A DNA stretch of 64,000 nt from assembly GCF_000348725.1 (NCBI RefSeq), contig NC_020813.1, positions 868,001-932,000 on the forward strand, given 5' to 3'. Every line of letters starts with the position of its first letter. Position 1 is the stretch's first letter. This document shows, one piece after another, positions 2,325 to 54,514 of this stretch. The translations under genes were made by a program, and so were the position numbers. The DNA comes from Pseudobdellovibrio exovorus JSS (GTDB lineage: Bacteria > Bdellovibrionota > Bdellovibrionia > Bdellovibrionales > Bdellovibrionaceae). Under the pieces are notes generated by a model that was given only the letters and a program-made list of their open reading frames with translations, was not told the DNA's origin and did not search any database.

Positions 2325-3203
2325 TTGACTGTTCCTGCTGAGATACTCAAAAAGGTCAAACGTATCGAGATCGACACTAGAAAAATGGTGAATAACATTT
2401 TTTCTGGCGAGTATCATACGCACTTCAAGGGTCAAGGGATGACCTTTGCGGACTTTCGTGAATATGTTGCAGGTGATGACATCCGATCTATTTCGTGGAC
2501 CTTAACGGCCCGTGCAGGTAAGCCATTTATTAAAACTTTTGAGGAAGAGCGTGAGCTGACAATGATCCTAGCGGTTGATGTCAGTGGCTCGCAAGATTAC
2601 GGCTCAAAAAATTACTTCAAAGGTGAGACATTAACTTATGTGGCCGCAACCTTAGCCTTCAGTGCCATTAAAAATAATGATCAAGTGGGTTTATTATTAT
2701 TTTCTGATGAAGTGGAATTGTATTTGCCTCCTAAAAAAGGGCGGGCGCAGGTCTATCGTATTTTGCGTGAGTTATTGTATTTTAAACCCAAAAGTCAAAA
2801 AACAAATATTGCTTCTGGATTAGATTATTTGCGTGGCGTTTTAAAAAAGCGTTCCACAGTTTTTTTACTGAGTGACTTCCGAGATCAGAATTATGAAGCT
2901 TCGCTTCGGTTGCTTGAAAGAAAGCACGAAGTGATCGCTGGTTTAGTGCAAGACGAAACAGAGTTTGTATTTCCTGATGTGGGATTGATTGAATTACAGG
3001 ATGCAGAAACGGGTGAAGTGTCTTTGATTGACACCTCTAATCCTGTATTTCGTGAAGAGATGAAGTCGAAGTTTAAAGGTGACTTTGAAAACTTTCAAAA
3101 AAAATTAAGTCGTTCAGGAGTGAGATCCTTTAGCTTTTTACCAGACGACAATTACCATCATGCATTGCTAGCTTTTTTCAAAAGAAAGGCAGGGCGTAAG
3201 TGA
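2325..3203 (+). CDS. DUF58 vWA-like protein of the MoxR-Bat operon
   Basis: A 292-residue soluble protein of the DUF58 family. The diagnostic core FREYVAGDDIRSISWTLTAR is followed by a vWA-like fold whose metal-site motif is DVSGSQD, then LLFSDEVE and LLSDFRDQ strands. These proteins are the usual partner of MoxR and are believed to be cytosolic or membrane-attached. The start is TTG at 2325, right after the moxR stop, with CGGGG just upstream; no ATG candidate precedes the conserved KVKRIEI segment. It overlaps the next gene by four bases (GTGA). Confidence 0.9.
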   Translation: MTVPAEILKKVKRIEIDTRKMVNNIFSGEYHTHFKGQGMTFADFREYVAGDDIRSISWTLTARAGKPFIKTFEEERELTMILAVDVSGSQDYGSKNYFKGETLTYVAATLAFSAIKNNDQVGLLLFSDEVELYLPPKKGRAQVYRILRELLYFKPKSQKTNIASGLDYLRGVLKKRSTVFLLSDFRDQNYEASLRLLERKHEVIAGLVQDETEFVFPDVGLIELQDAETGEVSLIDTSNPVFREEMKSKFKGDFENFQKKLSRSGVRSFSFLPDDNYHHALLAFFKRKAGRK

Positions 3204-4048
3204 GTTCTGCTAATTGTCTGATTGAAGTTCCAGCGGTTAAAGGCTTAGAAGACAATGCGGTAACGGTAGGGCGCCACGTGGTATTTAAATGCCGCATGAA
3301 TGCCGAGGCTGTGCCAGATTTGCAAAGCTATTATCTGAAGAAGCCCTTACCTGTACCCAACAGTATTCGAGTGTTTTCAGTTCAGCAGATGGATTCCGAC
3401 AGTTTTGAAGTGAACTTAACCTTTTATCAAGCCGGTGAGTATCTACCGAATCAAGTTATTCTGACTGATGGTGTGAATGAACTGAATATGATTGGTGACA
3501 GCGTTAAAGTGGCGAGTGTTATTGAAGCCTCAGCTGATGGTAAGTCTCCAGAGGCCTACAAATCTATTCTACCAATTGGTATGGGGATGCCTGTTTTGTA
3601 TTGGGTGCTGGCAGCTTTTGTTTTGATCAGCGCTGTGTATTTAATCTGGGCCTATGTCACTAGAATTAATTATTACAGACAATTAAAAGAAGGCTTGAAG
3701 AATTACTCTTCGCCACTGACTCCTGAAGATCAATTTTACAAAGCCATGAGAATGGCTGAAAAAAAAGAATTTCCTTTGGATGAGGTTGAACGCGCTTTTC
3801 GTGTTTATGTTTTGCGCCAATATTCACTGCCGATGTTTGAACTAACAGATAAGCGTATTTTAAGATACTTCAAGCACAACTTCCCTCGATACAAAAAGGT
3901 AAGACAAGAGCTGCAAAAGATTTTACAGGAATTTGAAACCTATCGAGGGCTTGCACAAACTGATTTAAATAGTGATTTGAATAGTAAAAATATATTTATT
4001 AAAAAATTATATAAATTTATTCAGTTGGCGAAAGAGGGTGTCCTGTGA
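3200..4048 (+). CDS. Single-pass membrane protein of the Bat operon (DUF4381-like position)
   Basis: A 282-residue protein with no clear signal peptide, an N-terminal all-beta domain of about 120 residues, one strong membrane helix (about 130-152, with YWVLAAFVLISAVYLIWAY) and a helical cytosolic tail of 130 residues containing RAFRVYVLRQY. In other MoxR operons the gene between DUF58 and batA encodes a DUF4381-type protein of the same topology; I assign it to that slot by position and topology, not by clear motifs. Start GTG overlaps the preceding stop (GTGA) and its own stop overlaps batA in the same way, so translation is coupled. Confidence 0.75.
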   Translation: MSSANCLIEVPAVKGLEDNAVTVGRHVVFKCRMNAEAVPDLQSYYLKKPLPVPNSIRVFSVQQMDSDSFEVNLTFYQAGEYLPNQVILTDGVNELNMIGDSVKVASVIEASADGKSPEAYKSILPIGMGMPVLYWVLAAFVLISAVYLIWAYVTRINYYRQLKEGLKNYSSPLTPEDQFYKAMRMAEKKEFPLDEVERAFRVYVLRQYSLPMFELTDKRILRYFKHNFPRYKKVRQELQKILQEFETYRGLAQTDLNSDLNSKNIFIKKLYKFIQLAKEGVL

Positions 4049-26367: not shown

Positions 26368-26844
26368 ATGAAAGTGAATATAGTCAATGAACCAGAAAAG
26401 TTATTGTCCGCGCCGCAGTTGAAAAAACTGGTTCAGCGTATTTGTCGTTACTTTGCTGTTAAGAAGATACGCAATCGTCAAATGCTATTAAAGAAAAAAG
26501 AACTAACAGTTGTATTTTTATCTCGCGCCGAGATGAAGACGATTAATTATCAATTTCGTAAAAAAAATAAACCTACGGATATTTTAAGCTTTGCAAGTGG
26601 AGATCCTGAATCGTTAGGGGAGCTCCTCTTATGCCTTCCAGTATTAGAAGAGCAGGCCAAACGACAGCAGCATTCACTTCAACATGAAACAGCCTACATG
26701 CTGATCCATGGGATATTACATTTATTGGGATATGATCACGAATTGTCCAAAGCGGAAGAGCAGTTGATGTTCAGATTGCAAGATAGATGTTTTGAGGAAA
26801 TAAGTAGATTATTTAGAAGTAATATTCAATCTAATAGTACTTAA
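26368..26844 (+). CDS. ybeY: Endoribonuclease YbeY
   Basis: A 158-residue YbeY metalloprotein acting in 16S rRNA 3' maturation and ribosome quality control. The zinc motif HGILHLLGYDHE (family H-x3-H-x5-H) is intact near residue 115, and KKNKPTDILSFAS is the usual preceding strand. ATG at 26368 starts the conserved region; a longer frame from 26332 would overlap the mazG start. The stop overlaps that of the convergent histidine kinase gene by four bases and marks the left edge of the accessory block. Confidence 0.94.
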   Translation: MKVNIVNEPEKLLSAPQLKKLVQRICRYFAVKKIRNRQMLLKKKELTVVFLSRAEMKTINYQFRKKNKPTDILSFASGDPESLGELLLCLPVLEEQAKRQQHSLQHETAYMLIHGILHLLGYDHELSKAEEQLMFRLQDRCFEEISRLFRSNIQSNST

Positions 26845-27950
26845 CTTATAGGTATAATAATTAAGACTTGAGTTCCTTCACCTAAATTTGAGATTATGCG
26901 TATTGAAGCGCCTATTCGGTGAGCTTCTTGGTGCATTGTGTAGAGAGCTATACCATGACCTGAATATGTATTTTCTGAGTTAGTTTTTCCAAAAGATAGA
27001 GGCTTTTCCCCTAGAACTTTCAGTATATGAGGTGGGATTCCGCGGCCATGATCTGTGATGGTCACCTGCAGATGGTTGTTTATTACAGAAAAATGAATTT
27101 GAACGAGATCGTCATTTTGCGATGCCTCTTGAGAGTTCTGAACACAGTTATTAATAGATCTGTATAGGAATAATGCCGCCGTATTTGTGATGGAAAAATT
27201 TTGAAGATCTGATTCGGTGCTGAATTGAGCTTTGTTTTTTAAAGATATATTTCGAATTACATATTCTTTTTGTAAACGTTCAAAGATATTCAGAATATTG
27301 TCTGTCGTTGGAGGAGTAGTGAGTGGTAAAGAGAGAGGGGCATTTGCAGAGGTTTCTTTTTTACTGGGTCGAGTATAAAGTAGTAGCTGATTTGCTATAT
27401 CTTCAATTCGATTAATCGTATCGATTTGAATTTTCTGAATCTCTTGCTGGTTTATTTTGCTAGTTATAAGTTTTAACGTAGAGAGTGGCGAACGAATATC
27501 ATGAGCAACCGCTTGCATCAGATTTGCCAACTCAATTTTAAATTCAATGTTTCTCATGAGAGAACGGTAAATAAAAAATATAAGAGCTCCCATTAGAAGA
27601 CCTATTAGTAGATATTGAGCTAAAAGAGAATTCTTGTACACAACAACTATTTTATAAGATTGATTATTACTCTCTATAATTCTGTTAAAGGTTAGTAGAT
27701 CATAGGATTTCTTTTTAGAACTTACTTCAAAAATCAGATGAGCGTTTGAGAAAATTGACATTTTCTTTACTGAAATACTCAGTAAAGGTGTCATGATGAT
27801 CTTAAGATTTGCATAATCTTGTCGTTGCAATAATGGAAGGATAGAGTTGCTAATTATGTTAGTTTGATTTGTAAGATTGAAAAAGAGAGCTACCTGTATC
27901 AGCGTAGAAAAAACAGTAAGTGATATTAAAAGAAAAATATATTTTTTCAT
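26841..27950 (-). CDS. Orphan sensor histidine kinase of the YcaO-peptide operon
   Basis: A 369-residue membrane kinase. Membrane helices at about 4-24 and 111-128 bracket an 85-residue extracytoplasmic sensor region of no recognised family. The dimerisation/phosphoacceptor motif is AVAHDIRSPLSTLK (His150). The ATP-binding domain has the N box near NNCVQNSQEAS, G1 DHGRGIP and G2 GHGIALY. No response regulator gene lies nearby. The start codon overlaps the stop of the YcaO gene (ATGA), so the two are translationally coupled. I infer that it senses the product, or the binding protein, of this operon. Confidence 0.88.
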   Translation of the reverse strand: MKKYIFLLISLTVFSTLIQVALFFNLTNQTNIISNSILPLLQRQDYANLKIIMTPLLSISVKKMSIFSNAHLIFEVSSKKKSYDLLTFNRIIESNNQSYKIVVVYKNSLLAQYLLIGLLMGALIFFIYRSLMRNIEFKIELANLMQAVAHDIRSPLSTLKLITSKINQQEIQKIQIDTINRIEDIANQLLLYTRPSKKETSANAPLSLPLTTPPTTDNILNIFERLQKEYVIRNISLKNKAQFSTESDLQNFSITNTAALFLYRSINNCVQNSQEASQNDDLVQIHFSVINNHLQVTITDHGRGIPPHILKVLGEKPLSFGKTNSENTYSGHGIALYTMHQEAHRIGASIRIISNLGEGTQVLIIIPIS

Positions 27951-28879
27951 CTAATAGGATGGGGGAATGTGTTAATAGAATTTAACAAAGAGGATGAGAT
28001 CTTAAGACGTTTATAGATTTTATCAATGTCAGGAAAACCACGATAAAGATCGAGCATATTGGGATTACTGGCCCGTACAAAGACAAGAGGTATGTCTTTT
28101 AAGACGTGAGATTTGTATTCGACAAAAGATGTTGTGCTACTTGTATCTTCATAGACCCATTTTCCTGAAAATTGAAATATAAAATTTTTAAAAAAATCAG
28201 AAAATTTCGGATCGAATAATAAGTTCCCATGCTCGTTGTAAGAATATTTTTTTATTTGAGAAAATTGATCTATTGTTGTTGGCGTAGAAATACGCCTATT
28301 CTTAAAATATAATAATTGTCTAAAAGCTTCTATATGTGAGGTTAATGCCGCTTGGTATTTTGAGATATGTAGCCCCATGCCTATAAAGCACATACTCTCT
28401 AGTTGTAAGAAACAGAGACTGAAGACTTTGTTAGCGAGATCGTTTTGAAATATTCGGCAGCTAATATTTTCTTTTCTATGAAATCTGTCAAATGGCTCTT
28501 CCAAGTCAAAGCAACGAAAGCTTTTTAAAAATCCGCCATGATAATTAAGAAGAAAGAAGTCTCGTTCTTGAAGCTCACACAAGGCTTTTTCTTGAGCAGT
28601 TAAAATATCTGTGAAGACAGCACATCCATTGCTAGAAGGTATGTTATTTTCTAAAATGATTAAGCGCTCATATGCTTCAGCGAAGGCGATTTGAAGGGCC
28701 TTATCAGCATTTGTTGCAGTTCCTCTTCCAGTTGTTTTGAAAGAATCTATCGAGAGATCTACATGGTAATCATAAATAAGATTGTGAAAGTCTTGCGGCC
28801 AAATAATTTTTGAGACTTTTAACACATTCCGCTTGGTTAAGTTATAAATGGATGTGTTTAATTTTTTTTGAAGTTCCAT
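27947..28879 (-). CDS. YcaO-domain enzyme
   Basis: A 310-residue protein with the YcaO pattern in order: GRGTATNADKALQIAFAEAY followed by ER (51-72, ATP/Mg-binding Glu68 and Glu71), NGCAVF (84-89), a Glu helix CELQERD (101-107), GMGLHISKYQAALTSHIEAF (157-176) and a late strand DIPLVFVRASNP. It ends FPHPIR, reminiscent of the Pro-rich C-terminus of azoline-forming members. YcaO enzymes use ATP to activate peptide backbone amides, making azolines, thioamides or amidines. The domain is shorter than most (about 310 against about 400 residues). No partner E1-like or TfuA gene is present. Cytosolic; coupled to genes on both sides. Confidence 0.8.
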   Translation of the reverse strand: MELQKKLNTSIYNLTKRNVLKVSKIIWPQDFHNLIYDYHVDLSIDSFKTTGRGTATNADKALQIAFAEAYERLIILENNIPSSNGCAVFTDILTAQEKALCELQERDFFLLNYHGGFLKSFRCFDLEEPFDRFHRKENISCRIFQNDLANKVFSLCFLQLESMCFIGMGLHISKYQAALTSHIEAFRQLLYFKNRRISTPTTIDQFSQIKKYSYNEHGNLLFDPKFSDFFKNFIFQFSGKWVYEDTSSTTSFVEYKSHVLKDIPLVFVRASNPNMLDLYRGFPDIDKIYKRLKISSSLLNSINTFPHPIR

Positions 28880-30342
28880 ACCAAAGTGCGTGAATTATAT
28901 TTTGAGATGTCTCCTTTAATGTTGTGAGACATGGCGGTTGTGTAGGGGGCAGCAAAAATAGGAACTACTTTTGCTGCCAAGAGCGATTCATAGTGGAGTT
29001 GGTTGATATATTGAGCTTGTTCAGCTGAATTACGCTGAAGAGTGAATTCTAATAGCAATTGTTCAGTTTTTTTATTCTTTGCAACTAAAAGTCCATGTTT
29101 AACTGCAAAAGCAAAAAAAGAGAAACTATTGTCAAAACTAACATCATTTGTCAGGAGCATAATGTCAGGGGATCTTTTAACGCCATTTAATATACTATTT
29201 GGATTATGTTTTTCAATCTTTAGATTTGGTATATCTTGTTTTAAATGTTCCCACTTTTGAGGATTAGATACGCCTAAAGTAAATACGTACTGAGGTACAG
29301 AGGTCGATTGTAAACGGTTTATTCGTACGTTCTCTTGTTGTTCTTTTGTAAGGTAGCCCTGCCCAAAAAACTGAATAAATTCGTCAGTTTTTTGGGCTCC
29401 ATATATCTGAAGTTTATTAACTTCATCAGAGATTTTTTTTGCTACAAAAAAACGTTCGCTAATCTGTGACTCTTGTGCCGCTTTATCGGAAAAAACGACC
29501 AGTCCTACGCTAATAGGATATGTTTCAAGTTTACTCCAGTTTTTATTACGAAGAGACATGTCAATATCTGCAGTTAATGGAACTGTCGAGCTGATGATAT
29601 CAATTTTATTTTCTGCAAGTAACGATTCCACCGTATGAGAGTTTGAATTGATGATTTCAATAGTATCTGGTGCTTGAGGGTGGTGTTGATATAATTTCGC
29701 GTTGGCATGCAGACGACTGAAATCATTATTTTTGATATGGTAATATCCAGACGTTATTGAATAGTCTATTATTTTAGACTCAGAAAGCGGCACTGCTTGG
29801 TCAAGAGCTTTGGCTGGGATGATTTTGAAGTTTATTGAGGATAAAAGAGACAGGAGCAGAGGTTTCTTCTGCTCCTCGGATATCTTGATTATTAGTTGGT
29901 TTTTGCGAACAAATATTTTCTGAAGACAACTGTTGGAGTTTTCTTCAGAGGAACAAAGAAGATATTTAATATTTGCATGATCGTTCTGTTGATGAAGTAT
30001 AGAGCGGTGAAGGCTTATCAGAGCATCATTGGCTGTCACTGTAGTATTATCTTCAAAATGACAAATGAATTCATCCTCGCTCCATTCATAGAAAGTGCAA
30101 AGGTCTGGATGAAGCTGTCCATCTAAACCTTCATTTATGAGGCCACGGTAAAGATGATTTGTAAAAAATGCGTTTGTTAAAGTTGTATTTTGAATGGGAT
30201 CAACAGGAAGCTTAAGATTATCTAGATTGACTGCGACACGGAGAGAGTACGACATATGAAGAGTCCTTGTAGTTGAAGCAGTTATAAGAGTGATCAAAGT
30301 TACAAATACAACTAAGCAGTATGAGGGCTTTATCAGTATCAA
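28858..30342 (-). CDS. Oligopeptide-type solute-binding protein (family 5)
   Basis: A 494-residue protein with an N-terminal hydrophobic export segment (about 8-22) and a family 5 (SBP_bac_5/DppA-OppA) fold: LTNAFFTNHLYRGLINEGLD and DGQLHPDLCTFYEWSEDEF, then FEDNTTVTANDALISLHRSI, the usual order at the start of these proteins. The family binds peptides or other large solutes in the periplasm. No permease or ATPase gene accompanies it, so it may serve as a receptor rather than a transporter. The TTG start overlaps the stop of the small peptide gene (TTGA) and its end overlaps the YcaO gene by 22 bases. Confidence 0.8.
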   Translation of the reverse strand: MILIKPSYCLVVFVTLITLITASTTRTLHMSYSLRVAVNLDNLKLPVDPIQNTTLTNAFFTNHLYRGLINEGLDGQLHPDLCTFYEWSEDEFICHFEDNTTVTANDALISLHRSILHQQNDHANIKYLLCSSEENSNSCLQKIFVRKNQLIIKISEEQKKPLLLSLLSSINFKIIPAKALDQAVPLSESKIIDYSITSGYYHIKNNDFSRLHANAKLYQHHPQAPDTIEIINSNSHTVESLLAENKIDIISSTVPLTADIDMSLRNKNWSKLETYPISVGLVVFSDKAAQESQISERFFVAKKISDEVNKLQIYGAQKTDEFIQFFGQGYLTKEQQENVRINRLQSTSVPQYVFTLGVSNPQKWEHLKQDIPNLKIEKHNPNSILNGVKRSPDIMLLTNDVSFDNSFSFFAFAVKHGLLVAKNKKTEQLLLEFTLQRNSAEQAQYINQLHYESLLAAKVVPIFAAPYTTAMSHNIKGDISKYNSRTLVWNFKKN

Positions 30343-30530
30343 TCAGTCAAAGTTCCTATACAGTTCGCTGGTTCACTAGATTCCGTAATATTTAGAGTTT
30401 GGATTAAGTTTTCGGATTGAAGCTTTTGAACTAAAGATGAAGAGGGCTCTTTAGCCTTATAATTATGAGCAAATGAAAAAAGACTTATAAACATCGTAGT
30501 GATAAAAGAGATACTTCTTTTTATAGACAT
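30339..30530 (-). CDS. Small secreted peptide, candidate precursor for the YcaO enzyme
   Basis: A 63-residue product: signal peptide MSIKRSISFITTMFISLFSFA, then a polar 40-residue tail whose last 15 residues (TESSEPANCIGTLTD) are rich in Ser, Thr and contain the only Cys. It is not similar to anything I recognise. It has the strongest Shine-Dalgarno in the region, GAGGAGGATCT directly before the ATG, and is the first gene of the four-gene coupled operon. I infer that it is the substrate or signal of the system; a plain secreted protein is the alternative. Confidence 0.65.
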   Translation of the reverse strand: MSIKRSISFITTMFISLFSFAHNYKAKEPSSSLVQKLQSENLIQTLNITESSEPANCIGTLTD

Positions 30531-30722: not shown

Positions 30723-33700
30723 GTTCTGATTGGCTCACAGATTCCCATCTGTTATTCTTGTTGTATTTGTTTTTTTCCTTGGTCCACAGTTCTGATTGGC
30801 TCACAGATTCCCATCTGTTATTCTTTCATTGATGAACTGTATGAATACTTTGGAGTTCTGATTGGCTCACAGATTCCCATCTGTTATTCTTCGTCGGTAG
30901 CGACGGTGTTCATGGTTTCAGTTCTGATTGGCTCACAGATTCCCATCTGTTATTCTTTGCAAGGGTCGGGGGATCGGGGGTTAAACGTTCTGATTGGCTC
31001 ACAGATTCCCATCTGTTATTCTCAAACTCAGTAAAACATTTGCAATACATCAGTTCTGATTGGCTCACAGATTCCCATCTGTTATTCTACAAATTTCAGC
31101 GAACATCGACAAGGTTGTGTTCTGATTGGCTCACAGATTCCCATCTGTTATTCTCGTCAATGAAGACAGTTGTCACAGCCGTAGGTTCTGATTGGCTCAC
31201 AGATTCCCATCTGTTATTCTAAGCATTTAAAAAGAATCATTGAGCGAAAGTTCTGATTGGCTCACAGATTCCCATCTGTTATTCTAAGCATTTAAAAAGA
31301 ATCATTGAGCGAAAGTTCTGATTGGCTCACAGATTCCCATCTGTTATTCTCTGCTGCGACCATGTTGAAAGTTTCACTCAGTTCTGATTGGCTCACAGAT
31401 TCCCATCTGTTATTCTTTACACAATTCAACTATATGCCAGTTCCAAGTTCTGATTGGCTCACAGATTCCCATCTGTTATTCTAGCTGTTGCAAAATCAGT
31501 CAAAATGAAAACGTTCTGATTGGCTCACAGATTCCCATCTGTTATTCTTGATCGCAGTATTAAAGGGTTTAGAGATGTGTTCTGATTGGCTCACAGATTC
31601 CCATCTGTTATTCTCGTGATCTTCTGGCCCGTTTCTTTTAAATAGTTCTGATTGGCTCACAGATTCCCATCTGTTATTCTTATATTGAACATGGCAAAAA
31701 ATACCGCCAGTTCTGATTGGCTCACAGATTCCCATCTGTTATTCTACGGTTCCGTTTTTGAGGGGACGAAAGTTAGTTCTGATTGGCTCACAGATTCCCA
31801 TCTGTTATTCTGAGATCACGGATCATCCTGATTTGGATCTGGTTCTGATTGGCTCACAGATTCCCATCTGTTATTCTAAATAGGCACAGATGGCTTTGGC
31901 GTTCTCTGTTCTGATTGGCTCACAGATTCCCATCTGTTATTCTGCTTCTCAAGCGAATCAGCGAGCCGCTTGCGTTCTGATTGGCTCACAGATTCCCATC
32001 TGTTATTCTCGAGCTCGCTAAACTATTAGATCATCAGATGTTCTGATTGGCTCACAGATTCCCATCTGTTATTCTTGACTTTTTTTGTAAGCCTACTTAG
32101 TTTCCGTTCTGATTGGCTCACAGATTCCCATCTGTTATTCTGAGAGACCAGAGAGGTCTAATCTAGGGGTAGTTCTGATTGGCTCACAGATTCCCATCTG
32201 TTATTCTATATGGAAAAAGAATGTGCATCATGCGGCGGTTCTGATTGGCTCACAGATTCCCATCTGTTATTCTCTTAGAGGGTCACGAGATGCTCGATCT
32301 ACTGTTCTGATTGGCTCACAGATTCCCATCTGTTATTCTCAACAGAGATCGCCTCTCTGATGTGGCTGAGTTCTGATTGGCTCACAGATTCCCATCTGTT
32401 ATTCTAGAGGAAAAAGAAATACAGGACATAATGAGGTTCTGATTGGCTCACAGATTCCCATCTGTTATTCTAATGGGCTTACAAAGCTCATTACACCGCC
32501 GGTTCTGATTGGCTCACAGATTCCCATCTGTTATTCTGGCCGTCTCGAGGGTGATGAATATGTTGCTGTTCTGATTGGCTCACAGATTCCCATCTGTTAT
32601 TCTGCGCCGGTCCAATGGTCCAAACATTTTGTCGTTCTGATTGGCTCACAGATTCCCATCTGTTATTCTTGATTCCCAAACACAAAAAAAGTATTTTTGT
32701 TCTGATTGGCTCACAGATTCCCATCTGTTATTCTAAGGAGTCTCCGTGAAAACATACATCAAAGGTTCTGATTGGCTCACAGATTCCCATCTGTTATTCT
32801 CCAGCTTAAAATTGTAATAAACCCGCCCTTGTTCTGATTGGCTCACAGATTCCCATCTGTTATTCTTTAGATTGGCTTCATATCTCACCTCCACAAGTTC
32901 TGATTGGCTCACAGATTCCCATCTGTTATTCTTTGGACCTTTAGCCTTGGCGTTTATAAGCCAGTTCTGATTGGCTCACAGATTCCCATCTGTTATTCTT
33001 GCACAGAATCGATGGCCCCGGCCATTTAGTTCTGATTGGCTCACAGATTCCCATCTGTTATTCTTAAAAGGTGAGACGTGGTTCTTGAATGGATGTTCTG
33101 ATTGGCTCACAGATTCCCATCTGTTATTCTTTGCGCGAGTTACCAAGAGCAGCCGTGTCGGTTCTGATTGGCTCACAGATTCCCATCTGTTATTCTAATT
33201 ATACACAGGTTGTTCACCTAAGTGAGGTTCTGATTGGCTCACAGATTCCCATCTGTTATTCTTTGTGCAAGCCGCTTGCTTAAAAGTAACATGTTCTGAT
33301 TGGCTCACAGATTCCCATCTGTTATTCTCCACCAGAACTTCTTACCCTCTGATGACCGGTTCTGATTGGCTCACAGATTCCCATCTGTTATTCTGTTTCT
33401 CGTTGTCCTAAATAAGACAAGCCAGTTCTGATTGGCTCACAGATTCCCATCTGTTATTCTGACTTTTAGCTGGTTGTGGTTGTTGCATACGTTCTGATTG
33501 GCTCACAGATTCCCATCTGTTATTCTGGCCTTTAGCGGTATCGCCTGCAATCCCTTGTTCTGATTGGCTCACAGATTCCCATCTGTTATTCTCCATTTTC
33601 AAAGAAGTCTCGTCGTAATTCAGTTCTGATTGGCTCACAGATTCCCATCTGTTATTCTAAAAATCGACTTGAGTGAAAGGTTATATGCGTTCTGATTGGC

Positions 33701-35504
33701 TCACAGATTCCCATCTGTTATTCTAGCTCGCTACAGTTTAAAAAAATTAGTACAGTTCTGATTGGCTCACAGATTCCCATCTGTTATTCTGTTAATTATG
33801 TGATTAATGATAGATAATTGGTTCTGATTGGCTCACAGATTCCCATCTGTTATTCTCAGACGTTTACACGCCAGAGGGCGAAGACAGTTCTGATTGGCTC
33901 ACAGATTCCCATCTGTTATTCTTGAAAAAAAATTTATATGCAATCCGTGACAGTTCTGATTGGCTCACAGATTCCCATCTGTTATTCTATTGCGAGTATT
34001 ACGGCGGCAAGCTAGCCCGTTCTGATTGGCTCACAGATTCCCATCTGTTATTCTAAACATTCAGCTTAGCAAGAAGTTTTCTGTGTTCTGATTGGCTCAC
34101 AGATTCCCATCTGTTATTCTAGTATTTTGAAAAAACAGAAGAGTTTAACAGTTCTGATTGGCTCACAGATTCCCATCTGTTATTCTCATCTATCCCATCA
34201 GGAAAGTACTTTCTACGTTCTGATTGGCTCACAGATTCCCATCTGTTATTCTAGCGCTTCATCAAAATGAACTCAAGCCAGAGTTCTGATTGGCTCACAG
34301 ATTCCCATCTGTTATTCTTTTTCGCCTTCAGCAGTTTGAACCACCTCAGTTCTGATTGGCTCACAGATTCCCATCTGTTATTCTTTCGTTTTAATCATAG
34401 AATTCTCCTTTTAGTTCTGATTGGCTCACAGATTCCCATCTGTTATTCTGAAGATGGACGACGCGATCAAAGAGTTTTCGTTCTGATTGGCTCACAGATT
34501 CCCATCTGTTATTCTTCGAGTGTCGGTCTTCGATCTATGCCAGCAGTTCTGATTGGCTCACAGATTCCCATCTGTTATTCTATTGACAATAAATACATAA
34601 AACGATGAGCAGTTCTGATTGGCTCACAGATTCCCATCTGTTATTCTGCCTTGATGAAAACACCGATGCCGCCAAGAGTTCTGATTGGCTCACAGATTCC
34701 CATCTGTTATTCTGGCTCAGGCATAATATATGCCAGAGTAATAGTTCTGATTGGCTCACAGATTCCCATCTGTTATTCTCAGCGATCGAGCCAGTATCGC
34801 TAACTGAAGGTTCTGATTGGCTCACAGATTCCCATCTGTTATTCTTCGATCAACACAGTTGAAAATGGTGCGACAGTTCTGATTGGCTCACAGATTCCCA
34901 TCTGTTATTCTCTTATTTAAATTTTACAAAGGAGATTGCATGTTCTGATTGGCTCACAGATTCCCATCTGTTATTCTTGTCTTGCCTGGTTGGATAAAAT
35001 TTTTCATGTTCTGATTGGCTCACAGATTCCCATCTGTTATTCTAAGTAGGACGTTTAAACAAATCTGATTACGTTCTGATTGGCTCACAGATTCCCATCT
35101 GTTATTCTTTTATTACGCGAATCGTGCGAAGGCTAACAGTTCTGATTGGCTCACAGATTCCCATCTGTTATTCTCCCTAGTCGCAACCCTCGCAAGCAAG
35201 GATCGTTCTGATTGGCTCACAGATTCCCATCTGTTATTCTGATAAAGTAATGTTTTTGGCTGACGATAATGTTCTGATTGGCTCACAGATTCCCATCTGT
35301 TATTCTTTTTATGTATTTATTGCACAGACAGTAAATGTTCTGATTGGCTCACAGATTCCCATCTGTTATTCTATTTGTCCGCATTGGTTGCAGGCGGTCA
35401 TAGTTCTGATTGGCTCACAGATTCCCATCTGTTATTCTAGAGGGGGCTGCGCATCGTTGGTATGGAGCGTTCTGATTGGCTCACAGATTCCCATCTGTTA
35501 TTCT
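30723..35504 (+). CRISPR. Type II-C CRISPR array, 73 repeats and 72 spacers
   Basis: Walking the array by eye gives 73 copies of one 36-base repeat, beginning GTTCTGATTGGCTCACAGAT and ending TCCCATCTGTTATTCT, with no variant seen even at the ends. Of 72 spacers 64 are 30 bases, seven are 29 and one (32933-32963) is 31. Spacers 8 and 9 are identical. Orientation is set to plus because tracrRNA (39944 onwards) is complementary to repeat positions 4-24, which become the crRNA handle, and because a terminator follows the last repeat. Each repeat ends with TGTTATTCT, an extended -10 motif. Repeat-wide reading frames on both strands are artefacts. Confidence 0.98.
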
Positions 35505-35510
35505 TCACGC

Positions 35511-35550
35511 CCCATAAACCCTTGATAATAAAAGGGTTTATGGGTTTTTG
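35511..35550 (+). terminator. Intrinsic terminator ending the CRISPR array
   Basis: Arms CCCATAAACCCTT (35511-35523) and AAGGGTTTATGGG (35532-35544) pair over 13 bases and are followed by TTTTTG. It starts six bases after the last repeat and would stop plus-strand array transcripts before they run into cas2, which is convergent. Confidence 0.92.
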
Positions 35551-35574: not shown

Positions 35575-35901
35575 TTAGAAAAGTAAGAGTTGATCGGGGC
35601 TTTTTAAACGGCTTTTGGTGCCACAATAAAAGGTTTTTATGCTCTCATATTGCTTATCTGTGATGACTAACATATGAACAGTTCCTTGATCGGGCATGTA
35701 TTTTTCGATCTTTTTGATGAAGGTTTCAGCTTCTTCACGCCCTTTGCAATGACGCATATAAACAGAGAATTGCGCCATGGAAAAACCCAGATCAAGCAAA
35801 TTATTGCGAAAGTCGCTGGCCCTTTTTCTTTGTTCTTTATTTACTACCGGTAAGTCAAAAAGCACCTGTAACCACAAAAGTCTATACCCACTATATTGCA
35901 T
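35575..35901 (-). CDS. cas2: CRISPR-associated protein Cas2
   Basis: A 108-residue Cas2 of the type II group. It opens with [17 protein letters not shown], the beta strand carrying the family Asp, followed by the NKEQRKRASDFRN helix. Cas2 forms the dimer bridging two Cas1 dimers in the spacer-integration complex. Its start overlaps the end of cas1 by 11 bases. It is the last gene of the cas operon and faces the array. Confidence 0.95.
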   Translation of the reverse strand: MQYSGYRLLWLQVLFDLPVVNKEQRKRASDFRNNLLDLGFSMAQFSVYMRHCKGREEAETFIKKIEKYMPDQGTVHMLVITDKQYESIKTFYCGTKSRLKSPDQLLLF

Positions 35902-36784
35902 AAAAGTTTAAATTTATGGATGTATCAAATAACTTATAATCTGCATTTAGAATCGCATTGGTGAAAGAGTGACAGTACTCGTGAATGGCAGAGCTTAGAG
36001 GTTTCTTCTCATTTCTATAAATAACTTCGTGTTCTAGAATAATCGAAAGCTTTCTTTTATTTTGTGGGCTTAGATCAGATTCATCTTGAAGTGTATAACA
36101 GTAGCTATCAACAAGGGGGCGGAATGGTTCCATCAAATCATCAACTAGGCAGAAGGGATTTTCAAAGTTGCTGTGGTGAATACCAATCGTGGGGTTTAGG
36201 CCGCTAGACGCGACAGAGCGGGCGACAGCACTTCTAAGAATTGCATAGCCGTAATTTAAAAATGAATTGGTTCCAGATAATACGGGGTCGCGTCTGAAGT
36301 TGTCTCCAAAGAGTGTTTTCCAGTAAAGGCGTGCCGCTTGTGCTTCTAGGTTTGTTTCATCATGTATTTCAACCTCATGGAAGAATTTATCCATAAGTAT
36401 CTGTTCTTTTTTTAAGTGCTTAAGAAGCTGATGTTGTTGCCAAATCTTTTGTTTGACGGCTTTTTGCCAAAGTCGTCCCTTTTGAATATCTGAAAGTGAT
36501 ATCTGGGCGGCTTGACGTTTTTGTGTAAGCGAATGACCTTGATATCCGAGCATACTGGCAAGGGGAGTGTATTTGCTGTCACAGAAGATAATAGGAATAT
36601 TTCGTTCTATCATCGAGGTCACAACATTGGTGCTAATCAGTACATCTTCCGAAAGGATCAAAGCTGTGAATATGTCATCCAAAGGTATTTCGGACTCACC
36701 TTTGGATGACAATACAACTAAATGGCCTCTCGATTTGGTAATTTTTAAACCTGGAGAAAGAAACTCTAAAACGTGGTTTTTCAT
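35891..36784 (-). CDS. cas1: CRISPR integrase Cas1, type II
   Basis: A 297-residue Cas1. Metal ligands are visible as Glu in [14 protein letters not shown], His in TIGIHHSN and Asp in [15 protein letters not shown]. It catalyses insertion of new spacers together with Cas2. The start overlaps the cas9 stop by four bases. No cas4 or csn2 is present, which, with the short Cas9, defines subtype II-C. Confidence 0.97.
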
Positions 36785-39700
36785 TTTAGAAGGGGTCCAT
36801 TATCGGTAATGACTCCAGTTGGAGAAACTGATACTTTTCGAAATTTATAGTCAACTAATTTAGTATAGGCTGGTATAAATTGCGTTTCATTTGCTAGTTC
36901 AGATGATTGATTTATTTTAAGGAAGTATAGCTTTTTATTGGCGGCCCTTATCGACTTAACAATATAATAATTTAATTGATTATTTACTTCAAGAGCAACA
37001 GTGTCACCTTTGTAAACTTTTGTTACCAATTTCGCTGCTGGGTGTGGTCTTAAGTCATTCGGGTTCTTAGAGTTAAGATCGAACGTTTTAATCGCTGTAA
37101 AAATGTAATCTGTTTTTCTCTTTTTATGATTATCTGATTTTAATGTTATATTCTGTGGAAGACACCAAATAGCTAAATAGTTGATATCGCCTTTTTGATA
37201 GTGTTTAACGTGCTGCTTGTCCTTACCATGAGTGATCTTGGCAAGACCACTTTCAATTAGACCAATATCGGCAGGATTTTCTTTTGTAACATCATAGACT
37301 CTTAGTTTTTTAACCCCGCTTTTTGCAAGAGAGATTACGCCACTTTTTTCTGCGAGATTCTGTAAAGATTGACTTCGTATTGTGGATGGATCTTTAACTG
37401 AATCAAGAGATTTGGTTGTGATAAGTTTGAAATCGTTCTCTTCCTCATATTTATTTGGATTTTTAATCAATCCAAAACAAGTCTCCTCCATAAACGGCCC
37501 ATTTTTCCCATGATCTACCTTGTGAGAAACAATGATCTCATTAAACTTTACATCAGCATCTTTGATGAAACCTTTCCAAGGCTCTGGAATAGGTATTCTA
37601 TTCGGGTCTTGATTGCGTGCGGAAGCATCGGAAATACGTTTAAGGTAACTGCGGGAAGTTAGGGCTACAGTTAGGGCGTCGATAGCGTGATGGCGATGGT
37701 CTTCACGATTTTTAGTACCATCCGGCTTTTGAATGAACTGATTGAGTCCAAGTTTTCCCCGAATGATACTTGTCATTTGCCCACGGCTGGCAACAATCTT
37801 GTAAGGATCAGTTATGGAGCCTAGGTATTTTTTCGCAATTTTAGATATGTAACGAGTGTCATTTAGGTGACGTTGTAAAAACTGATCCTTTTCTTCAAAT
37901 TTTTTAATAGCGTCCTCAGCAAATCTCCATTGTTTATGGTAGGGTAGTCTTTTTGCGAGTTCTTGAATTGACGCCCATTTTTCAGTATCTTGCCCGAAAG
38001 CCTCATAAGGGGTGCGATTACGTTTTTTCACGTTTTCTGAAGCTAATACCAAGACTTTATTGGCAAGGCTATCATCAAGAGTTCGTGAAAAAGGTAAAAT
38101 ATGATCCACCTGTACTTCATCAGAAAGAACCATCCGAGCTGAAATCGTTTTGCCTGAATAAGCACAAACTTGATTGTTCATAGCATCTAGTTCAAACCAC
38201 AGCTTGACTCGTTCAAAATTAAAAGCGCTAGGCTTTTGATTATGTTTTTCAATAAAGTCCCGAACCTGTTCGTTCAGTTCCTCATTCTTTTTTTTCTTAC
38301 GGTTGTCAAAATCACGTTCCTCTTTAGACTTTTTTAAATCACGGGCGAACTCAATATGAATATTGGTGGGTTTTCCATATTGCTCAATCAAGTCATTTAC
38401 AACCTGCCTGATTTGGTTAAGTGCTGCATGTACTGTAGGATTAGCTATTTTACCATAGCGTTTCTCGTCTTCATTTAGAGTTAGGTTGTTGTCTTTAATA
38501 TGTTGGGGAATTGGCTGCATAGAGTCGGGGATGCTGGCGCCGTAATAATCAAGTCTGTCTATTAAGGAAGTCTCTTCTTTTTCATTTTTAAATAAATCGT
38601 CAACAATTAAAGTTGGGTGGCGTTCCTCTTCTAAGATAAGAGAAACGATTTTCTGCAAGGCTTCTTTAGAATATGAACAGGTGGCCTCTTGAACATTAGG
38701 AACTTTTTCTTCTAATAAGTTTTCGATTATTTCAGAGTCTATTTTAAGTTGCAGAAGTCCTTTCTTAATTTCTTCCACAGACATGTCAGAGAAGTAGATT
38801 TCAGCAACTTCATCTTTGAGTTTTAAATCTAGAGAAGCCCACTCCTCGGCAAACAGTAAAGATTTGCTGAAGAAGTGGTTTGTAGTCGAAATTTTAATTT
38901 TATCTTTTGATTTAGATCTTTCTATAGAAAAGCTTAAATCAGATGGGAGTTTTAGAAGTTTTTTGATTTTTGTGTAAGTCGCTTCTCTGGTGTTTTTCAG
39001 CTCATGGAAAACTTTAAAAATTTGTTCGGAACTTAAAGAATGAGAATGAAAGTTCTCATCTTGATAGCTCAGATTAAAAAGCTCTGTTAAGAAACGATAC
39101 TCTTCAAAAGAAGGCATATACTTATAGGTTCTTTTTTTGTCCTCGAATAAAGAGCACGTTCCGGTTTCTACTGGCTTCAGAGGTCTTTGATGGAACATTC
39201 TATTTCTTAGAGTATTCCATTGTTCGTCGGAGATCTCGGGAAAAAATTTACTTTGGGTTTCAACGATAAAGTCAAATTCATCCTCTATCAACTGACGCAA
39301 TAAATGAAAGTCATTTTCGATAGTGGCTTTAGTAGATAAACCTTTTATATATCGGTCATGTAAATATTGGCCGACAGTTTTAAAGTCATTCTCTTTTAAC
39401 TGTTCTTGTAGCTTTTTGATACGTTCTGATATTTTATTGGCTTTGTCTTCTTCGGAGCCGCCTTTGCGATTAGATTTAAACCCTCTTTTTAAATTTAAAT
39501 AATAAAATACGCGTCCGAGTTCGTACGCGGAAAGTTGCTTTGATACTCCGTTGGCCCGTAGAGTCAGAACATCTAAAGACTTTAAGTCCTGTTGTTCTTG
39601 TTCACTTTGAGGAAAGAGACCCATGCTAACTAATTGATTGAGAACTAATTTTTTTCTTTGATGTAATCTATCACGTCGTCTGCGTTCATGACGTTTTTGA

Positions 39701-39864
39701 CGTCTTTTCGAAGCTAATGTTGTTCCATCTTTCGGATGGCGTCCATCTGTGAAAATTCGGCTACCGAGCTTTTCAATTCTTTGAGGCTCTCCATTTGTAT
39801 TCAATTCGAGAACGGCCCAACCAATAGAATTAGTGCCTACATCTAAACCAAGAGTGTATTTCAT
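36781..39864 (-). CDS. cas9: Type II-C Cas9 nuclease
   Basis: A 1027-residue Cas9, close to the size of Neisseria and Campylobacter II-C enzymes. Ruv[18 protein letters not shown] (Asp8), an Arg-rich bridge helix (about 53-72), Ruv[13 protein letters not shown] (Glu505), [18 protein letters not shown] (Asp587, His588) with Asn602/Asn611, and Ruv[14 protein letters not shown] (His726, Asp729) are all intact, so both strands of target DNA should be cut. The C-terminal 250 residues are the PAM-reading part. AGGGGA precedes the ATG. First gene of the cas9-cas1-cas2 operon, divergent from tracrRNA. Confidence 0.97.
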
Positions 39865-52042: not shown

Positions 52043-53103
52043 TGCCCAGTGCGAATCTCGTTATTCAGACAGCTTTTTTGGGCGATCTGATCCTTTCTGT
52101 TCCTGTGCTCAAAAGAATTAAGCATCTTTTCCCACAGGATAGACTTATCGTGGTTTGCAAAAAAGGTATTGGTGAATTCTTAGTTAAAAATCATATTGTC
52201 GATCAAATTATTGAAATTGAAAAATCGAACTCTGCGACTTACAGGCAGGCCTTAAAGGCTCTTGAGCCTTATCATGTAAACCATCTGTTCTGTTTACACC
52301 GATCTGTCAGAAGCCAATTATTTTCCGCAAGAGTAAAAGCTCGTCGGAAAATAGGATTTTATTCATTTTTAGGGTTTTGGATTTTTGATGAAATGGTGGA
52401 ACATGTATCTGAAAATCCAGAGGTCTTACGGCAGTTCAGAATACTGCAACCAATAGATCCAGAAACGGATATGAACTTTACGAGAAGTTCATTCGAGTAT
52501 TTAAATGAAGTGGCTGTTGATGGATCTATGCCCACAGTTCCAGGCTTTTTTGCATTTCCCAGAGTATCAGAGGTAAAGAAATCTCTTTCTGAAAAAACTC
52601 GTATTGCCATCTTTCCAGGAAGTGTTTGGGCCACTAAGCAGTGGACGAAGGAAGGCTTTGTCGCTTTGGTTCAACACTTCATTAGTATGGGGTATGAGGT
52701 GGATTTGATGGGTGGCCCTGCAGAAAAGCCTCTGTGCGATGAAATTGCTGATTTAAGTGGTGTTACTGTCAATGTCCTCGCCGGAAAGTTATCTGTGGCG
52801 GATTCGATAGAAGCTTTAAAACATTATGATTTAATTGTTTCGAATGACAGTGCCTCCACACACATGGCTTCTTTGAATGCTCGTCCCGTTGTCAGTATCT
52901 TTGGCCCAACGGTGCTGAGTATGGGTTTCCGTCCGTGGTCATCACGATTAAGAATTGTTGAGAATCTTGAGATGAACTGTCGTCCCTGTGGACGTCATGG
53001 GCACAGACAATGTCCTCTCAAACATCATTTGTGTATGAAACTGATAGAGGCTCCTCAGGTATTCGCAAAAGCCCAAGAGCTTTTGCGTGAAGTCTCTAGC
53101 TAA
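52042..53103 (+). CDS. Glycosyltransferase family 9 (heptosyltransferase type)
   Basis: A 353-residue GT9 protein of the WaaF/WaaC kind: IQTAFLGDLILSVPVLKRIK at the N-terminus, the central IAIFPGSVWATKQW and KPL nucleotide-sugar loop, and VSNDSASTHMASLNARPVVSIFGPT near the C-terminus. It adds heptose to the LPS inner core or a related saccharide. ATG 52042 overlaps the preceding stop (TGATG); GTG 52039 is also possible. The C-terminal Cys-rich CRPCGRHGHRQCPLKHHLC resembles WaaF relatives. Its end overlaps the convergent regulator by eight bases. Confidence 0.9.
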   Translation: MPSANLVIQTAFLGDLILSVPVLKRIKHLFPQDRLIVVCKKGIGEFLVKNHIVDQIIEIEKSNSATYRQALKALEPYHVNHLFCLHRSVRSQLFSARVKARRKIGFYSFLGFWIFDEMVEHVSENPEVLRQFRILQPIDPETDMNFTRSSFEYLNEVAVDGSMPTVPGFFAFPRVSEVKKSLSEKTRIAIFPGSVWATKQWTKEGFVALVQHFISMGYEVDLMGGPAEKPLCDEIADLSGVTVNVLAGKLSVADSIEALKHYDLIVSNDSASTHMASLNARPVVSIFGPTVLSMGFRPWSSRLRIVENLEMNCRPCGRHGHRQCPLKHHLCMKLIEAPQVFAKAQELLREVSS

Positions 53104-54514
53104 AATCTTTCACATTGATATTGTACTTACGAATCTTACGCAAAAGGGTATTTTTCGGAATATTCGCTTGTGCCACAGTTTGGTTGATTTTTCCTTTGTT
53201 GGCTTTCAAAGCGCTGACGATAAATTCTTTTTCAGCTTGCTCTTTAAAAACCTCAAAATTCAAAGCACCAGCAGTCGTGTTGTCTACGGGCTGAGGCTGA
53301 GTCGAGATATCTTTTTGTTGTTGAGTCACATCTGACTTGATCTGATCTGGTAAACTCGCCTTCGTCATAATAGAAGAAGATTCCACAATAAAGGCACGCT
53401 CAATAATATTTTCTAGCTCACGGATATTGCCGGGCCAGCGATATTTTTTCATCAGGTCAAGGCACTCTGGCTCAATAGCGGTGATGTTTTTTCCATGCTC
53501 TCTAGAAAATTTTTGCAAGAAGCTCATGGCAAGTGCCGGAATGTCATCAGCTCTTTCACGAAGAGGAGGTAAAAAGATCGGCATGACATTTAGACGATAG
53601 AAAAGATCCTCTCTGAATTCAGAAGTTTCCATCATTTTTTCAAGGTTACGATTCGTTGCTGCAATGATGCGAGCATTTGTCTTCACTTCGCGGTTGCTAC
53701 CAACAGGAGTAAATTTTTTCTCTTGCAGAGCGCGTAAGATCTTTACTTGCATCTCGGGTTTTAATTCACCGATTTCATCGAGGAACAAGGTTCCATTATT
53801 AGCCAGCTGAAACTTTCCGATCTTTCTTTCAACGGCGCCTGTGAAAGCCCCTTTTTCGTGACCAAAAAATTCAGACTCCATCAAGTTTTCCGGAATAGCA
53901 CCACAGTTGATGGCGACAAAAGCCCCTGATTTTCTTGGGGAGTTAAAGTGAATAGCGCGGGCGACAAGTTCTTTACCGGTTCCATTTTCTCCGCGAATCA
54001 GAACAGTGGTTTCCACTTTACAAAGCTTGTAAATCAGGTTGAAGACCTCTTTCATTTTCGTGTTGTGGCCGACGATTTCACTTTCAATATCGTCATCAAA
54101 GATAGGGTTAGAGGCTGTAAGATTGGTGATCATGTCATGGGCTTCTAAACTTTTGCGTACGATCTCAGTCAGGCGGTCAGGGCTGACAGGTTTTTCAACG
54201 TAATCATAGGCGCCATCTTTAATCGCCACGACAGCATCATTCAAATTGGAGTGCGCTGTCATAATGACAACAAATGTACGCGGGTCGTGTTCTTTGATCT
54301 CTTTCAGAGCTTCTAAGCCATTCATCTCAGGCATGCGGACGTCCATCAGAATAAGTCCGTAGGGCTGAGACTTAACTTTTTCTAAAGCTTCTAAACCATT
54401 ACTAGCTTCTTCAATCTCAAATTCAACCTGAAGATTGGTATTTTTAAGGATAGAGGCAACTGATTTTCTAAGCTCGCTTTCGTCATCTACGATCAGTGTT
54501 CTTAATTTTGTCAT
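53096..54514 (-). CDS. NtrC-family sigma-54 response regulator
   Basis: A 472-residue regulator: receiver domain 1-125 (phosphoacceptor Asp in LILMDVRMPEMNGLEAL), AAA+ domain with Walker A GENGTGKE, the sigma-54 loop GAFTGA and LFLDEIGEL, and a C-terminal Fis-type helix-turn-helix (NQTVAQANIPKNTLLRKIRK). It activates sigma-54 promoters when phosphorylated. It lies 15 bases downstream of the CHASE2 kinase gene, its probable partner. Confidence 0.94.
   Translation of the reverse strand: MTKLRTLIVDDESELRKSVASILKNTNLQVEFEIEEASNGLEALEKVKSQPYGLILMDVRMPEMNGLEALKEIKEHDPRTFVVIMTAHSNLNDAVVAIKDGAYDYVEKPVSPDRLTEIVRKSLEAHDMITNLTASNPIFDDDIESEIVGHNTKMKEVFNLIYKLCKVETTVLIRGENGTGKELVARAIHFNSPRKSGAFVAINCGAIPENLMESEFFGHEKGAFTGAVERKIGKFQLANNGTLFLDEIGELKPEMQVKILRALQEKKFTPVGSNREVKTNARIIAATNRNLEKMMETSEFREDLFYRLNVMPIFLPPLRERADDIPALAMSFLQKFSREHGKNITAIEPECLDLMKKYRWPGNIRELENIIERAFIVESSSIMTKASLPDQIKSDVTQQQKDISTQPQPVDNTTAGALNFEVFKEQAEKEFIVSALKANKGKINQTVAQANIPKNTLLRKIRKYNINVKDFS

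Follow-up and report, generated by a model that had tools for sequence, protein, structure and literature searches.

What could four overlapping genes, coding for a small secreted protein, an OppA-like binding protein, a YcaO enzyme and a sensor histidine kinase, be doing together in Pseudobdellovibrio exovorus JSS? The window, i.e. the whole stretch of DNA that we analysed, is 64,000 nt long and spans positions 868001-932000 of a genome that consists of one contig of 2,657,893 bp. Its four ORFs lie in tandem on the minus strand, each overlapping the next. The best-supported reading is that they make, modify, capture and sense a peptide: the cassette is probably a peptide-pheromone (auto-signalling) circuit, with the YcaO-modified tail of the small protein as its ligand.

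The first gene (30339-30530, minus strand, 63 aa, ATG start) encodes the putative signal precursor, assigned from the ORF call and the C-terminal profile match presented below. A strong Shine-Dalgarno sequence had been predicted in front of it and an AGGAGG is indeed read there, on the minus strand at 30540-30535, 4 bases ahead of the ATG. It is followed, on the same strand, by the genes for the OppA-like (family 5) binding protein (28858-30342, 494 aa, TTG start), the stand-alone YcaO enzyme (27947-28879, 310 aa) and the membrane sensor histidine kinase (26841-27950, 369 aa, H-box AHDIRSP). From the ORF coordinates, the binding-protein and YcaO genes overlap by 22 bases (28858-28879) and the YcaO and kinase genes by 4 (ATGA), as stated in the original prediction; the overlap between the small ORF and the binding-protein gene (TTGA), however, is of 4 bases and not 3. 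The TTG start gives the binding protein an N-terminal hydrophobic segment, either anchor or signal, which is also present in relatives. Directly upstream of the cassette is a large CRISPR array (window 30730-35530), the repeat of which contains AATAACAGATGGGAATCTGTGAGCCAATCAGAAC; after it, at 35575-39864, come minus-strand genes for proteins of 108, 297 and 1027 aa. By length, order and sequence these look like Cas2, Cas1 and Cas9, i.e. a type II CRISPR system.

A Pfam scan of the four products found domains only in the YcaO protein (PF02624, E = 4e-9) and in the kinase (HATPase_c and HisKA), in agreement with the identities proposed at the outset; no receiver domain was found in the window kinase. 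The YcaO protein keeps the invariant residues E68, R72, E102, E105, R106 and E184 of the conserved ExxxR and ExxER sets. Its AlphaFold model (pLDDT 89.6) has YcaO enzymes as top PDB matches, those of M. kandleri and M. jannaschii, McbD and LynD being among the fold matches. It is the only YcaO that the window query found in its own genome. Neither a ThiF/E1-like or ocin-ThiF partner nor a dehydrogenase was found in the window operon, and the cassettes of relatives add only a regulator. Judged by its sequence, the enzyme is a member of the YcaO superfamily but not of the classical azole-peptide clusters. The modification of the precursor would be an azoline, an amidine or a thioamide, between which the sequence does not discriminate.

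Taken alone, the window binding protein matched no Pfam family. Its predicted membership of family 5 was borne out by its homologues, 21 of 23 of which match SBP_bac_5 (PF00496, best E = 1.5e-19), and by its AlphaFold model (pLDDT 87.4), whose best match is an OppA-peptide complex (E = 3.5e-21). Four proteins of the genome score above the cut-off for SBP_bac_5 and three of these have permease neighbours; the set does not include the cassette protein. The operon had been described as devoid of a transporter, and this holds more generally: no PF00528 permease was found near any cassette in nine genomes, which argues for a putative receptor rather than an importer.

The product of the small ORF carries a Sec signal peptide with a probable cleavage site at SFA/HNYKAKEP; its mature part is short, has one Cys and ends in ESSEPANCIGTLTD. 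A small signal-peptide ORF is found directly before the binding-protein gene in almost every cassette. Among close relatives (the L040-L053 group and L095) its pN/pS ratio is 0.15-0.35, which indicates purifying selection on a translated protein in those loci. These small ORFs share a C-terminal motif resembling L..xG.[IL]...[ST][IV]C: a Cys is present in the last 14 residues of 44 out of 47, versus 12% of the ORFs of at least 200 aa in the same loci. YcaO cyclodehydratases act on Cys, Ser and Thr residues; in L132, L106 and the pair L112/L145, each of which has Cys-bearing relatives in the tree, the aligned residue is Ser instead of Cys. When a C-terminal profile of 42 relatives, window excluded, was applied to the 463 window ORFs, the small ORF ranked first (E = 5.6e-5), and on this profile match it is a genuine member of the precursor family. 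It is short, at 63 aa, and is without the Ser/Thr that many relatives have close before the Cys. Linked precursors with no Cys near the C-terminus were found in L188-L191, L193 and L194; their tails are Ser/Thr-rich.

To see how constant the association is, relatives of YcaO were sought in the family, the order and the phylum, and the surrounding DNA was then read. This gave 87 loci, many of them in draft assemblies, 53 of which scored at least 150 bits and are called strong here. YcaO homologues consistently occurring without their partners had been named beforehand as an observation that would tell against the circuit, and this is not the pattern seen: the kinase adjoins YcaO in 53 out of 53 strong loci and the binding protein and kinase both do so in 52, the lone locus without a binding protein being cut off by the contig end (it begins at base 3). 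Nine further loci with a weak YcaO (32-53 bits) have binding protein, kinase and regulator, with conjugation genes adjacent. YcaO matches without a binding protein (L134-L138, L143, L144 and L158) lie in other contexts and were set aside. Overlaps of 22 bases between the binding-protein and YcaO genes recur in 26 loci and overlaps of 4 bases ahead of the kinase gene in 28, these being the commonest values; since most of the encoded proteins share only 14-29% identity with their window counterparts, such an arrangement is not a matter of chance. The same divergence of the YcaO family explains why searching GTDB contigs by nucleotide pattern, starting from the window YcaO, retrieved no relative, whereas the whole-genome search did; on plasmids, neither the two YcaO queries nor the one binding-protein query gave a match.

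Two layouts were distinguished: [regulator]-peptide-binding protein-YcaO-kinase (layout A) and YcaO-peptide-binding protein-kinase-regulator (layout B). In a tree built from the binding protein plus YcaO, the window cassette falls in a regulator-less branch of layout A, together with about 10 other divergent cassettes. A very divergent one (L159) was found in a genome of the same genus (a single contig of 3,348,710 bp), with a YcaO of 45 bits, a binding protein and a kinase; its small ORF is without the Cys motif. Another locus, L101, carries beside its cassette (at 2463-3574) a short secreted ORF rich in Cys, together with a protein of 281 aa, which we take to resemble an MNIO (DUF692) enzyme and to form with the ORF a bufferin-like pair.

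The absence of a response regulator, also part of the original prediction, is true of the window's branch but not of the relatives at large: an NtrC-type regulator is encoded in 32 of the 53 strong loci (~60%) and in 47 of the 77 loci with a binding protein, and a sigma-54 activation domain was present in all three regulators tested. A strict sigma-54 -24/-12 pattern, for which ~2% is expected, stands at the head of the operon in 13 of 18 layout B loci (p = 6e-19), in only 9 of 33 layout A loci with the regulator first (p = 1e-8) and in 5 of 26 regulator-less loci, all p-values here and below being optimistic because the loci share ancestry and are not phylogenetically independent. In L123, L127 and L131 similar sites precede the gene that opens the divergent conjugation operon; one precedes the like gene in L125, and one is present on the conjugation-operon side of L157. 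Sites at the heads of both cassettes and conjugation operons point to autoinduction and, in some elements, to control of the transfer operon. Before the window operon no sigma-54 site was found, and sigma-70-like sites were no commoner across it than in shuffles. NtrC-type genes exist elsewhere in the genome; the best match, at window 53096-54514, adjoins its own kinase, and none could be assigned as the cognate regulator.

The regulator-bearing loci are also those linked to conjugation. F-type conjugation genes, forming a type IV secretion system, were present within the stretch read in 21 of 47 regulator-bearing loci versus none of 30 regulator-less ones (p = 3.5e-6), and longer flanks add conjugation genes for L051, L094, L098, L123, L127 and L131. 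Pfam matches in these clusters were to TrbC pilin, TraC, TrbI, TraK and an FtsK-like ATPase, with weak ones to Replic_Relax and TraU. Conversely, 28 of the 65 TraC-type genes in the family lie at most 20 kb from a YcaO gene, about 0.01 being expected per gene. The genome of the window itself gave no match for a TraC-type conjugation ATPase. Four conjugation clusters (L197, L200, L203 and L204) have a binding protein and a kinase, plus a regulator in L203 and L204, with no YcaO found. Because of such clusters, and of the precursors without a C-terminal Cys, modification is perhaps dispensable in some branches, where the system may exist in an unmodified-peptide form. The first gene of several conjugation operons (L131, 12633-13112; L123, 12588-13229; L176, 15550-16035) codes for a small protein that contains a domain like sigma-70 region 4, tested with Pfam in L131; it is probably a second-tier regulator.

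The analysis establishes, by computation, the genes and how they are linked, the precursor family, the protein folds, the sigma-54 sites and the association with conjugation. From these we infer the chemistry, the ligand, the contact between receptor and kinase, and the output as follows. The small ORF product would be made in the cytoplasm, where YcaO would modify it towards the C-terminus, the conserved Cys/Ser and the residues next to it being the most likely targets. The modified precursor would be exported by Sec via its signal peptide, and signal peptidase, probably with further proteases, would free a short, modified C-terminal peptide. In the periplasm, the OppA-like protein, devoid of a permease, would bind this peptide and engage the membrane kinase encoded alongside. 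The kinase would then phosphorylate a response regulator. For most relatives this would be the NtrC-type sigma-54 activator of the same cluster, which would fire the sigma-54 promoters before the cassette (a positive feedback) and, in some elements, those before the conjugation operon; the output would often be conjugation. The window copy, belonging to a branch with neither regulator nor conjugation genes, would have to signal to an unlinked regulator.

Another way to read the same genes is that the binding protein and the kinase sense foreign peptides, for instance those of prey, the small protein being an inhibitor or a co-receptor, or YcaO modifying the receptor or the kinase. P. exovorus JSS is a predator, OppA folds bind peptides of many sequences, and some of the systems just described keep binding protein and kinase with no detectable YcaO. 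Against this, the binding protein is almost always accompanied by the small ORF, in which a C-terminal Cys/Ser is conserved; moreover, the linkage to conjugation fits a kin signal better than the sensing of prey. We regard foreign-peptide sensing as unlikely. Slightly less likely still is that what YcaO makes acts mainly as an antimicrobial of mobile elements, with binding protein, kinase and regulator serving self-sensing or the control of immunity. YcaO enzymes commonly make azole/azoline antibiotics, and the multiple distinct cassettes that a genome can contain (five were found in G058) could reflect competition; but the operon has no exporter, dehydrogenase, ThiF-like partner or immunity gene, and each cassette comes with a binding protein and a kinase of its own. 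Finally, it is very improbable that the window cassette is the decaying relic of a conjugative element, in spite of its lack of a regulator and of a sigma-54 site, its short precursor and a genome without a TraC-type ATPase, since all four frames are intact, the conserved overlaps are kept and the ~10 other intact divergent cassettes of the regulator-less branch imply long maintenance.

The pheromone circuit that we favour has likenesses to several known systems. In the Vibrio LuxP-LuxQ pair, a periplasmic binding protein presents AI-2, which is not a peptide, to a membrane kinase. The pairing of binding protein and membrane kinase is the same as in the cassette; however, LuxP is not a family 5 protein, and there is neither a ribosomal precursor nor a YcaO. 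ComX-ComP and AgrD-AgrC rely on gene-encoded, enzymatically modified peptides that induce their own production and are perceived by a kinase and a regulator encoded next to them, all of which would apply to the cassette. They differ from it by their enzymes (prenylation or thiolactone formation), by the direct binding of the peptide to the kinase, by the lack of a binding-protein receptor and by their Gram-positive hosts. RiPPs made by a stand-alone YcaO, such as an amidine peptide (PMC8442711) and ItfB (PMC10352776), share with the cassette a YcaO without its usual partner and a short precursor, but in the literature searched they have no cassette of binding protein, kinase and regulator. Bufferins, which are modified ribosomal peptides made by MNIO enzymes and bind copper (PMC12452194), were likewise studied along with precursors that bear signal peptides; they differ by the type of enzyme and by a role in copper binding rather than in signalling. 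A literature search combining YcaO with Bdellovibrio, pheromone or kinase, in which subscription journals were sparsely covered, returned no system of this kind.

A close parallel for the transfer-linked relatives is the enterococcal pheromone-responsive plasmid pCF10, with its peptide cCF10 and the proteins PrgZ and PrgX (PMC7117660). Both have a peptide signal and a dedicated OppA-family receptor beside conjugation genes, and control of transfer, as is proposed for the cassettes; the link between receptor and conjugation genes is found in the regulator-bearing relatives, not in the window. In pCF10, however, Opp takes up the peptides, which then act on cytoplasmic PrgX (PMC7117660); these defining features are absent from the cassettes, which combine YcaO, no permease, a membrane kinase and a sigma-54 activator.

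Pheromone-controlled conjugation is known in Gram-positive enterococci and, in the literature searched, no Gram-negative counterpart is described, nor is a YcaO product acting as a signal sensed via a binding protein and a kinase. The wider proposal is that, throughout the phylum, Gram-negative conjugative elements control their transfer by a Sec-exported, YcaO-modified pheromone, an OppA-like receptor, a kinase and an autoinducing sigma-54 activator, and that predators like P. exovorus keep stand-alone versions for cell-cell signalling; to us the chances for and against it appear evenly balanced. If true, it would give a new role to YcaO enzymes and to orphan OppA-like proteins, open conjugation control in this phylum to direct tests and point to a specific system by which predatory bacteria may signal from cell to cell.
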